From a virus: a stretch of 41,834 nt of DNA. The notes below the pieces were generated by a model. It did not search any database. It worked only from the letters and a program-made list of their open reading frames with translations, and had not been told where the DNA came from. The position numbers and the translations under genes are program-made. This document shows, one piece after another, positions 2,887-41,663 of the stretch (the first letter of the stretch is position 1; the number at the start of each line of letters is the position of its first letter). The stretch is taken from IMG/VR virus record IMGVR_UViG_3300010392_000035, positions 1 to 41,834 of that record; one strand, given 5' to 3'.

Positions 2887-3708
2887 TTAATTTTCCCAAA
2901 TCATTTCTGGATATTTTGCGTCTCTGGCGTTAAAAACTTCCCAGTCTTGAGAATTGTTTTTGCCCTTGTTGCTGGCGTCTACCATTTGGAGCCAATCAGT
3001 TTTGAATTGACAATCCTCTAACCACTTCACTGGTGACTTGCAATACTCCCGCTGATTGCATCGATTTGCGTAGTAAACGTAATCATCTAGCGATTGCATA
3101 ATTTTGTCTTCGCCAGACATCGCCACGGCCTCAAATAAGGCGTGTTGAATGTTTTTAAATTCGGCCCGTGGATTGAAGGATTTTATTTTTTGATAGGTCT
3201 CCATGAAAAGCAAAATACACTTTCCCGCCGTGGGCTTTATTGTATCGTTCGCATCTGCACACATCTGCACTGGCGCAATATTTATATTATCTTGATTCTT
3301 TTCATTCTTATCATTCTTGTTTGTGGTTAACTGTTGGTTAACTGTTGGTTGATTGCTGGTTAACTGCTGGTTAACTGGCTGGTTAATTTCACTTTCTGAA
3401 CTTTGGTAAATCTCATAATTGCACACAGTTATAGCAGTAAATCTGTTGGTTGATTTGGTGGTTAGTTCGTTGGTTGATTTTAAACGGTTTAATGATGACC
3501 TTATTTTTTGCCTTGAAATTTGAAGCTCTTTCGAAAGCATTAAAGAAGAGCTAATAAAAGAGCCTCTTTCTATGGTGTGCCCCCGCCATTTTGCAGACTC
3601 ATGATTTGCCTTTAAAAGGCAGTGGAAAAACAAACGAACAGTGTCCGCGTGTTGATACCACTCCCACTCTAAAAGCTGGCGGTGTGCTTTTATCCAGCCG
3701 TCAGCCAT
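2887..3708 (-). CDS. Replication initiator-like protein (lambda O/DnaD-like)
   Basis: About 273 residues from ATG 3708; this start follows the upstream stop by one base and begins the conserved-looking MADGWIKAHRQLLEWEW. Residues 1-100 fit the winged-helix DNA-binding domain common in phage replisome-organiser proteins (RLFFHCLLKANH, KWRG, then LSISRQ-like helix and NRFTAITVCNYEIY). A low-complexity Asn/Gln/Thr linker follows (about residues 105-145), and a helical C-terminal domain ends in a Trp/Asp-rich tail. The linker DNA is an iteron array, the same arrangement as ori inside gene O of lambda. It should bind those repeats and recruit host helicase machinery. Confidence 0.75.
   Translation of the reverse strand: MADGWIKAHRQLLEWEWYQHADTVRLFFHCLLKANHESAKWRGHTIERGSFISSSLMLSKELQISRQKIRSSLNRLKSTNELTTKSTNRFTAITVCNYEIYQSSESEINQPVNQQLTSNQPTVNQQLTTNKNDKNEKNQDNINIAPVQMCADANDTIKPTAGKCILLFMETYQKIKSFNPRAEFKNIQHALFEAVAMSGEDKIMQSLDDYVYYANRCNQREYCKSPVKWLEDCQFKTDWLQMVDASNKGKNNSQDWEVFNARDAKYPEMIWEN
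3324..3475. other. Iteron array, candidate replication origin
   Basis: TGGTT(A/G)A repeats begin at 3324, 3335, 3346, 3357, 3368 and 3380 (steps of 11, 11, 11, 11 and 12 bp), with three more at 3447, 3459 and 3471 (steps of 12). Steps of 11 bp are not a multiple of three, so selection acts on DNA spacing and not on a repeated peptide, and the spacing keeps the sites near one face of the helix. They lie inside the initiator gene, whose product would be the natural binder. AT-rich DNA follows at 3270-3320. Confidence 0.7.
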
Positions 3709-32931: not shown

Positions 32932-33366
32932 ATGAAATACTTACTAATACTTTTAATATTCACGCTGTCAGCCAGCGCCCGTGTAGGTGAAACAAAAGCG
33001 CAATGTGACAAACGCTATGGTAAACCTATAAATGAACCAAGAAAAGCAACTGAAAACCACCCTCCAGTTTACGCATACAAAACAAAGGACTGGAAAATCT
33101 ATATAGCTTTTGAAAAAGGTAAAGCAATCATGCTGACTTATTATAAAGCTGACGGCAAAAAAAATATAACAAAAGCAATTGGTGAAACTATAGCAAAAAT
33201 CAACCTGCCTAATGTAAAATGGGGCCGTGGCATTTTTGGCAAAACTATCTCAGTAGATAAAAGGTATTTCAAAACTATAGAGTCTGATGCTATTTCAATC
33301 ACTGACTGGAACGGGGTTGCTACATATAGAAAACGCGTAAGCTCTAATTATACAAAGGGGCTATAA
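32932..33366 (+). CDS. Secreted protein, tandem paralog 1
   Basis: 144 residues. A signal peptide (MKYLLILLIFTLSASA) is probably cleaved after ASA, followed by RVGETKAQCDKRYGKP and a beta-rich body with many Tyr and Lys. The GET...C..RYGK phrase is repeated in the next gene, and the first 21 codons of the two are nearly identical in DNA, so they arose by duplication. Probably periplasmic or exported. No enzyme motif seen; function unknown. I recall similar short exported proteins in PVC-group bacteria, which is only suggestive of host. Confidence 0.7.
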   Translation: MKYLLILLIFTLSASARVGETKAQCDKRYGKPINEPRKATENHPPVYAYKTKDWKIYIAFEKGKAIMLTYYKADGKKNITKAIGETIAKINLPNVKWGRGIFGKTISVDKRYFKTIESDAISITDWNGVATYRKRVSSNYTKGL

Positions 33367-33367
33367 T

Positions 33368-33904
33368 ATGAAATACTTACTAATACTTTTAATCTTCACG
33401 CTGTCAGTCAGCGCCCGCATTGGCGAAACAATAGAAGAGTGCAAAAAGCGCTATGGTAAAACAACCATAAAAACCAATAAGCATCAAATGAAGTATGCGC
33501 AGTTTTATAAAAACAACTTCCATATTTTATGTCTTTTTGATGATGATAAATGTGCCTATATAATTTATTTAACCAAAAGACGAAATTTCAAAAAAGGAGA
33601 GGAAGAAAAAGCTCTTGATGAATTGGAGAAAGTAAACGCTCCTGACAGCAAAATAGTCAGTTATGGCTGGTGTTCCTTTACTAATTTATGGGGCTTGAAA
33701 TACTTAGAGTTCTTTGATAAAAAGCTGGTTGAAATAAAAACAAGAAACACCTTTGGGCACTCCGTTAAAGTAAAAGCCGTCTATGGCCTGACGCGTGAAG
33801 AAATCGCATTCAGCTTCATAAATAAAAAATTCAAATCCAAGCTATATAAAATCCAACAAGAAAATATAGAAACGCCAAAATCTGGAAAAACAGGAGGTCT
33901 ATAA
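33368..33904 (+). CDS. Secreted protein, tandem paralog 2
   Basis: 178 residues. The signal peptide (MKYLLILLIFTLSVSA) and the GETIEECKKRYGK phrase match paralog 1; the rest has diverged and the C-terminus is longer, basic and helical. Starts two bases after the upstream stop. The strong conservation of the leader DNA compared with the mature part suggests either a recent duplication with fast divergence of the body or recombination at the leader. Confidence 0.7.
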   Translation: MKYLLILLIFTLSVSARIGETIEECKKRYGKTTIKTNKHQMKYAQFYKNNFHILCLFDDDKCAYIIYLTKRRNFKKGEEEKALDELEKVNAPDSKIVSYGWCSFTNLWGLKYLEFFDKKLVEIKTRNTFGHSVKVKAVYGLTREEIAFSFINKKFKSKLYKIQQENIETPKSGKTGGL

Positions 33905-38943: not shown

Positions 38944-39016
38944 TAGCGGTTAAAGGAATCGAACCTTTCATTTCTTGGTTATGAGCCAAACGGCTTTCCC
39001 AGTAGCCTAAACCGCA
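38944..39016 (-). tRNA. tRNA with anticodon CAT (Met or modified Ile)
   Basis: A 73-nt cloverleaf on the minus strand: acceptor TGCGGTT/AACCGCT with a T-T mismatch at 1-72, T8-A9, D stem GGCT/AGCC with GG in the loop, anticodon stem TTTGG/CCAAG with loop CTCATAA, T stem AAAGG/CCTTT with loop TTCGATT. Not an initiator by the absence of three G-C pairs. No CCA is encoded. The unpaired 1-72 position is odd. It lies between the rightward block and the terminase. Confidence 0.85.
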
Positions 39017-40795: not shown

Positions 40796-41254
40796 TTATT
40801 CATCGTTCAAAATATCCAGAATAGTTGCGGCTTTACTGTTTCCGTGGGGAATTTTTGCCGCTCCGCCAATAAGCTTGTAAGTGCTTAGACTTTTTGAATG
40901 TCTTGACATTGGAGTGCCGCCAACTGCCGATAAAAATTTATGATATTTGCCCTGTTGAATTCCAAATTCAGTTAGTAGATAATGTGCATATTTGTAACCG
41001 CGTCTTTCAGTCACATAATTATCTTTTCTGATTATGGTTAACATTTCATTTTTCATACGGAATGACTCTGCTAATTGGTCAACCGCCAGAATGTCAATTT
41101 CGGCCATCATTGCCGCCGCCATCAACTGCTCTATAACTCGTTCTTTGAAAAGAGATTCTTTTTCCTTTGGTGTAAGATTCATTTCTTCAATCTGTTCACC
41201 TAAAAAAGTCATGTTATCTAAAACGCTGTCTTTATTTACCTTGCGTGTATGCAT
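40796..41254 (-). CDS. terS: Small terminase, P27-like
   Basis: About 152 residues from ATG 41254. ILAVDQLAESFRMKNEMLTIIRKDN, then LTEFGIQQGKYHKFLSAVGGTPMSRHSKS fits the P27-type small terminase (the TPxSR ending is typical). It selects the packaging site and passes DNA to the large subunit encoded 12 bases downstream. It overlaps the upstream Lys/Pro-repeat gene by 19 bases. A TTG start nine codons earlier is less likely. Confidence 0.8.
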   Translation of the reverse strand: MHTRKVNKDSVLDNMTFLGEQIEEMNLTPKEKESLFKERVIEQLMAAAMMAEIDILAVDQLAESFRMKNEMLTIIRKDNYVTERRGYKYAHYLLTEFGIQQGKYHKFLSAVGGTPMSRHSKSLSTYKLIGGAAKIPHGNSKAATILDILNDE

Positions 41255-41604
41255 CGGTTTGGGAATCCTGCTTTTGAACAAACAAAATCAACCGCCTCAT
41301 ATTCTCGCATAAAGCCGATAAAATCAGAGCCAAGTTTTAAGACTTTTTCCCTGTCGAATGTCACCATTTTTACAGTATAACCCTCTGCAAAAATCGTCTG
41401 AAGTTGATTGATAAGACTCAATTCTTTCTCTGACAAGTTTCGTTTTTTAATAGATATGGCCTGAACAGTTGGTTTTTCAGCCGTTATTTTTGGCGCTTTT
41501 ATTTTTGGCGCTTTTGTTTTTGGCGCTTTTGTTTTGGGAGCTGCCTTTTTTCTTTTAGCCCTTGATTTTCTTGGCTTTATTGCTTTTGGTTTTTCGTCTG
41601 GCAT
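41236..41604 (-). CDS. Lys/Pro-repeat protein at the head of the packaging operon
   Basis: About 122 residues from ATG 41604, with AAGGA at good spacing; codons upstream of it belong to the promoter. Residues 8-45 are a tandem KAPK(T/I) repeat, strongly basic and histone-tail-like, and should bind DNA without sequence preference. The C-terminal half is a small folded domain ending CSKAGFPNRCIHAR. It comes first in the operon, before both terminase subunits, so a role in presenting DNA to packaging is plausible. No family recognised. Confidence 0.6.
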   Translation of the reverse strand: MPDEKPKAIKPRKSRAKRKKAAPKTKAPKTKAPKIKAPKITAEKPTVQAISIKKRNLSEKELSLINQLQTIFAEGYTVKMVTFDREKVLKLGSDFIGFMREYEAVDFVCSKAGFPNRCIHAR

Positions 41605-41614
41605 TGTTATATCC

Positions 41615-41663
41615 TTCTGAATTAGTTCAGAACTAATATAAACTACATGGCACATTATTGCAA
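41615..41663 (-). promoter_or_regulatory. Packaging promoter with family-1 operator
   Basis: Minus strand -35 TTGCAA (41663-41658), 17-bp spacer, -10 TATATT (41640-41635). The operator TTCTGAATTAGTTCAGAA (41615-41632, perfect 7-bp arms) covers the start site, a repressing position. The -35 and spacer overlap one copy of the 20-bp CATGGCAC repeat. Confidence 0.75.

Follow-up and report, generated by a model that had tools for sequence, protein, structure and literature searches.

What is the function of nine short repeats packed into a putative initiator gene of an unstudied virus, recorded as IMGVR_UViG_3300010392_000035, and which protein reads them? The whole stretch analysed (41,834 nucleotides, hereafter the window) belongs to a phage whose initiator family is large and mostly unstudied. 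The repeats are conserved as DNA across that family, adjoin an AT-rich stretch and covary in sequence with the recognition helix of the encoded protein. The segment is very probably a replication origin of a temperate phage that lies inside its own initiator gene, a reading that draws upon the 11-bp periodicity of the family, the covariation, the homology of the gene product to O of phage HK75 and gp18 of phage ST160, and the intragenic origins that have been published for other systems.

The initiator gene (2887..3708, minus strand) encodes a protein of 273 amino acids, assigned according to its match to PHROG 2514, its homology to HK75 O and its AF2 model, and consisting of an N-terminal winged-helix DNA-binding domain, a disordered linker and a helical C-terminal domain. 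Residues 2-141 match PHROG 2514, named 'DnaD-like helicase loader' (E 4e-30), and weaker matches include other PHROGs of replication initiation, 'O-like' among them. The name of PHROG 2514 does not in itself demonstrate helicase loading by this protein, in which the DnaD C-terminal domain (TIGR01446 / Pfam) was not matched by any Pfam or NCBIfam model, whereas ORF13 of phage TP901-1 does match that domain. The AF2 model shows a winged helix-turn-helix (residues 21-100 at pLDDT 95-98), with helices at residues 21-33 and 55-62, the recognition helix at 66-78 and wing strands at 82-86 and 91-95, and has disorder at residues 113-122 and 124-162. According to the secondary structure of this model, the winged-helix domain comprises residues 1-102, encoded at 3403..3708 (minus strand). 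Sequence relatives of the protein in the PDB were limited to weak helix-turn-helix matches (E 0.09 and 0.43), and a fold search returned generic winged helices with E values no lower than 0.001, the weak matches including 4pt7 ('Structure of initiator'). The first-pass annotation, made from the sequence alone, had called the gene initiator-like, which agrees with a winged-helix initiator of PHROG 2514 homologous to HK75 O and to gp18 of P22-type phages.

All nine repeats that the first-pass annotation had described, TGGTT(A/G) in groups of six and three with steps of 11-12 bp, are present at the positions given there; TGGTTR on the plus strand corresponds to YAACCA on the gene strand. Six iterons (minus strand, 3324..3385, starting at 3324, 3335, 3346, 3357, 3368 and 3380) occupy the start of the region encoding the disordered linker, and three upstream iterons (minus strand, 3447..3476, starting at 3447, 3459 and 3471) occupy codons 78-88, which in the AF2 model correspond to the last part of the recognition helix and to the wing, both within the folded domain. 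The earlier placement of the repeats in the low-complexity linker is therefore right for the six-site run and wrong for the three-site run, which lies in the coding region of the DNA-binding domain. From site to site the steps are 11, 11, 11, 11 and 12 bp, then 67 bp, then 12 and 12 bp.

The hexamer has no overall enrichment in the window (49 occurrences of TGGTTR, 46 expected), but its density in this cluster is 9 in 153 bp, where 300 dinucleotide shuffles never gave more than 4, and the lag-11 self-identity at 3321 (0.76) is the highest in the window, with a runner-up elsewhere of 0.545. Random back-translation of the window protein yields a mean of 2.5 sites and a maximum of 8 (n=5000), and shuffling of codons within the gene yields at least nine sites in 7 of 5000 trials. 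The six-site run also spans all three reading frames (INQ/VNQ, LTS/LTT/STN, QPT). The cluster thus exceeds both chance and the constraint imposed by the encoded protein. The argument put forward earlier, that the steps are not multiples of three, applies to the 11-bp steps and fails for the three 12-bp steps, among them both steps of the three-site run, which are in frame; the case for these as DNA rests on the codon-level and family-level controls. The conclusion that had been drawn from that argument, that the repeats are kept as DNA sites, is sustained by their excess over protein-preserving controls in the window gene and in the family.

Relatives were gathered from cultured phages, IMG/VR and prokaryote genomes, and periodicity was measured in 149 non-redundant genes against protein-preserving (synonymous) codon shuffles. 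In the linkers of these genes the identity at lag 11 is 0.545, versus 0.420 in the shuffles (z = 30.6), with a further signal at lag 22 (z = 22), and 131 of the 149 outdo all 12 of their own codon shuffles; the parts flanking the linker in the same genes, upstream or downstream, gave no signal of an 11-bp period. The repeat motif varies among phages, being AACCA or AACAA, CGACCA, GGGCAA, TGACAAAC or others. Upstream of the linker, the region that encodes the domain likewise contains copies of each gene's own motif, at 1.87 per gene versus 0.61 in codon shuffles and 0.68 for the motifs of other genes, mostly at 12-bp steps, the commonest distance to the linker array being 66-67 bp. Gaps that approximate multiples of 11 (55-56, 66-67 and 78-79 bp) were considered as a sign of a continuous filament and were not counted as such, because a decayed or extra site yields identical numbers. 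Some irregular loci were encountered in the collection. In G268 (L462 and L463) a short ORF that resembles an initiator and contains a single TAG stop is immediately followed by a more distantly related initiator-like ORF, apparently a decayed initiator copy beside another, and the neighbouring L488 and L491 in G563 are similar to that pair. PP511318.1 (Dulem virus 31, L008) is labelled Microviridae, a taxonomy line that looks wrong for a 35.8-kb circular sequence with exonuclease and replisome organizer genes.

Adjoining the iterons at 3276..3315 (minus strand) is a stretch of 82.5% AT, purine-rich on the gene strand, which encodes the N/K-rich linker, ranks in the top 0.25% of 40-bp windows by AT content and is a candidate DNA-unwinding element. 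Throughout the family the last iteron is directly followed by some 40-50 bp that are rich in AT and in purines: in the 40 bp that begin 10 bp past it, AT content is 0.77-0.78 versus about 0.65 elsewhere and purine content is 0.74-0.76 versus about 0.60 elsewhere. Inside the candidate stretch of the window, in-frame AT-rich repeats of 9 bp (3295-3318, 2.7 copies, ATTCTTATC) were observed, and short repeats with 15-bp spacing (AGATAAG, AGGATAG) come after the arrays in the known origin genes r1t orf11 and Tuc2009 orf16. A change of GC skew near 3.4 kb, which the first-pass annotation had offered as a check on the origin, is absent, the skew minimum being at 33.1 kb.

The initiator gene shares its early block with genes for an ERF-type annealing protein, an exonuclease, a Rha-like regulator and an ERCC4 nuclease, and no close relative of the first 20 kb of the window was found among sequenced phages. 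Directly after it stands an ORF of 187 amino acids (2320-2883) with CxxC pairs and no family match, at a place where relatives often carry a DnaB or DnaC gene. Neither of two Pfam models (DnaB_C, IstB/DnaC) found a match in the record, which may be incomplete, and no P-like loader was found in it. Other features of the window include a tRNA-Met (CAT) gene at 38944-39016 on the minus strand; a 15-bp tandem repeat at 41484-41551, encoding KAPKTKAPKIKAPK-like repeats of lysine, alanine and proline within an ORF (41236-41655) that stands upstream of terminase-like genes; and two adjacent ORFs (32932-33366 and 33368-33904) with nearly identical signal-peptide-like starts (MKYLLILLIFTLS.SAR), which are probably a tandem duplication.

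The variation of the motif among phages makes it possible to ask what determines it. A clear 11-bp array was found in 221 of 244 non-redundant genes, and arrays were registered on a seven-position core with the flank unused. Among 1122 pairs formed by 102 residues and 11 positions, corrected mutual information ranks residue 67 with base -2 first, residue 55 with base +1 second and residue 67 with base -1 third. From residue 67, base -2, which lies two positions ahead of the core, is predicted correctly in 193 of 201 genes: Q is found with A (92/95), as is M (6/6); R with G (41/44), as is K (40/40); and D with C (6/6), as is N (8/10), while S is mixed. K67 is also paired with G at -1 (37/41). 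At position +1, R55 occurs with C (70 versus 8) and other residues at 55 occur with A (132 versus 3). Some of the exceptions proved on visual check to be errors of register, and rotation-free calling on the training set gives 201 of 209, compared to no more than 90 with shuffled labels. The AF2 model places residue 67 at the N-terminal end of the recognition helix and residue 55 at that of the preceding helix, both of them usual sites of contact with bases in helix-turn-helix proteins; the pairings Q-A, R-G, K-G and D-C are ordinary contact preferences. In the window, Q67, the second residue of the recognition helix and, by the mutual-information scan and its position in the model, the main specificity residue, is encoded at 3508..3510 (minus strand), and residue 55, the first of the preceding helix and a serine in this phage, is encoded at 3544..3546 (minus strand), its role being suggested by covariation with iteron position +1.

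Relatedness does not account for this covariation, according to comparisons of pairs and of branches in which identity was measured without the recognition residues and the tree was built without those columns. Pairs of genes with different predictions from residue 67 share base -2 in 0-6% of cases and pairs with equal predictions in 92-97%, at all levels of identity; among disjoint pairs of at least 50% identity that differ in prediction, both bases are as predicted in 78 of 86, and base -2 tracks residue 67 even between pairs 85-88% identical outside the recognition residues. Branch-disjoint pairs on the tree agree with the prediction in 39 cases and disagree in 5 for residue 67, with corresponding counts of 18 and 7 for residue 55, and 17 and 3 for K versus others at -1. 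The tree is weakly supported, and the 5 independent pairs on supported branches, nearly all in the predicted direction, are too few for significance.

It is likely that these two residues constitute a code that sets origin specificity, residue 67 choosing the bases that precede a C(A/C)A core on its 5' side and residue 55 choosing C or A inside it. By residue 67, the bases specified would probably be AA for Q or M, GA for R, GG for K, CC for D and CA for N. Such a code would probably span phages of Bacteroidota, Bacillota, Pseudomonadota and others, and whole arrays of 5-9 sites probably shift together with one amino acid. No residue-base code in phage initiators was found in the open-access literature, the scope of a search outside which most subscription papers lie, and the code appears to be new.

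The code has limits and exceptions. When the rule was fixed beforehand and applied to new loci, base -2 was correct in 9 of 14 and base +1 in 13 of 18 by strict holdout, and rotation-free calling raised base -2 to 11 of 14, two of the three misses being near-ties. Among lambdoid O proteins, a branch that includes HK75, CobraSix/Chronis and PA-1, the D/N part of the rule for residue 67 breaks down, the failures comprising HK75 and O-like proteins of Enterobacter, Klebsiella and Pantoea. The window itself obeys the rule for residue 67 (Q67 with AA) and breaks that for residue 55, having S55 yet C at +1. R66 is present in the window and in three other loci (L302, L474 and L477), all with C at +1 and without R55, the base in L477 having been read by eye since its blind call was out of register; L484 has R66 but A at +1. 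Perhaps R66 replaces residue 55 in choosing C in the window and a few others, a lead that these sequences suggest.

The covariation constitutes strong indirect evidence, from sequence comparison, that the gene product reads the repeats, and other accounts of them may be judged accordingly against it. That they are a mere by-product of the Asn/Gln/Thr-rich linker is barely credible: the linker is indeed of low complexity and three of the steps are 12 bp and in frame, but the signal greatly exceeds that of protein-preserving controls, the sites fall in all three frames, and the sequence of the repeat tracks residue 67, whose codon lies in another part of the gene. Binding of the sites by a host protein or another phage protein (a nucleoid protein, for example) instead of the gene's own product is formally conceivable with nothing direct in its favour, but base -2 tracks residue 67 across phages of several bacterial phyla, which makes such binding highly improbable. 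The same covariation points to binding by the gene's own product in a manner also compatible with autoregulation, such that the repeats might be operators through which the protein represses its own gene, with the origin elsewhere. This is nonetheless unlikely, as a promoter-like excess near the array was not found, nine sites located 220-390 nt into the gene would be an unusual placement for operators, a conserved AT-rich, purine-rich stretch adjoins the array, and in systems of related architecture that have been studied experimentally (Tuc2009, TP901-1, SPP1) repeats of this type serve as origins (PMC8965321, PMC6316719). Operator and origin roles could coexist in one array.

As an origin, the segment would be bound at its YAACCA repeats by the winged-helix domain of the gene product, probably as single molecules spaced every 11-12 bp on the same face of the double helix. 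Upstream the array continues, with three further sites, into the region that encodes this domain. Once assembled, the complex would be expected to melt the AT-rich stretch beside it and, through the C-terminal domain of the protein, to recruit the replicative helicase, probably that of the host. For this locus the activity as an origin is inferred, as are the steps of protein binding, strand opening and helicase recruitment. The richness of the linker in Asn, Gln, Thr and Lys may exist because the stretch is read as DNA, in the form of iterons and AT-rich sequence, more than as protein.

The code makes recognition between initiator and origin visible without experiment, even between near-identical proteins; if it is true, the protein by itself suffices to read the specificity of the origin and perhaps to predict it. 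Its confirmation would allow the origins of many uncultured phages to be located and typed from sequence and the compatibility between prophages to be predicted, and a joint change of specificity in a multi-site origin and its initiator would become directly testable.

Intragenic origins of this sort are well established, in lambda and Stx phages (PMC7466680) as in the SPP1, TP901-1, Tuc2009 and RepA_N systems treated below. The window resembles lambda O and Stx O in having iterons and an AT-rich tract midway through the initiator gene, and in an initiator that pairs an N-terminal DNA-binding part with a C-terminal part which, in the window, is expected to recruit helicase. The origin had been classed by the first-pass annotation as lambda-O type, which is apt for mechanism and layout but not for the repeats, lambda having four annotated 18-bp iterons at 20-24-bp steps whereas the window has direct repeats at 11-12 bp, nor for the N-terminal domain, in which homology was not detectable: the N-termini of lambda O and of the TP901-1, Tuc2009 and r1t proteins gave no match to the profile of the window family. 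Closer relatives are O of Escherichia coli phage HK75, with a homologous winged-helix domain (30% identity, E 2e-15), and O of mEp506 and gp18 of the P22-type phage ST160, also homologous to the N-terminal domain of the window protein. The genes for O of HK75 and mEp506 and for gp18 of ST160 contain 11-bp TGTCCAAC repeats in two intragenic groups, but differ from the window in the sequence of the repeat, in the DnaB-like helicase gene directly downstream in most of them, and in the failure there of the D/N part of the residue-67 rule.

Among lactococcal phages, the replisome organizers compared were TP901-1 ORF13, Tuc2009 ORF16 and r1t ORF11; those of TP901-1 and Tuc2009 are reported to bind intragenic direct repeats that serve as origin (PMC8965321). 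Tuc2009 orf16 has 11-bp CAACCA repeats in its linker and is annotated in its record 'contains origin of replication', the r1t ORF11 gene likewise has 11-bp repeats in its linker, and TP901-1 showed no clear 11-bp array by the method used here. The oriL of SPP1 consists of direct repeats and an AT-rich unwinding element inside the gene for the initiator gp38 (PMC6316719), but SPP1 has a second origin, oriR, elsewhere, whereas no second repeat cluster of that kind occurs elsewhere in the window, and SPP1 encodes a loader (gp39) and a helicase (gp40). In RepA_N proteins (pSK41), which are structurally similar to DnaD, a winged-helix N-terminus binds Rep boxes within the rep gene, while the origin itself codes for the central domain, a linker that can be dispensed with (PMC5703833), although this is a plasmid system with its own domain family. 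Geminiviruses also have iteron sequences that differ among related viruses and are matched to the cognate Rep (PMC12548392), but theirs is a rolling-circle Rep of single-stranded DNA plant viruses, unrelated in protein and origin.

Pseudoalteromonas phage HS2 possesses a domain of the window type and YAACCA repeats together with a lambda-O-like C-terminal domain (46% identity over 71 residues). This combination suggests that domain and repeats travel as a cassette that appears to be joined to differing helicase-recruiting domains; the plasmid pPR9 has been described as an example of such joining (PMC5703833). The origin in the window is of an already known kind, to which the residue-base code adds a part that looks new.
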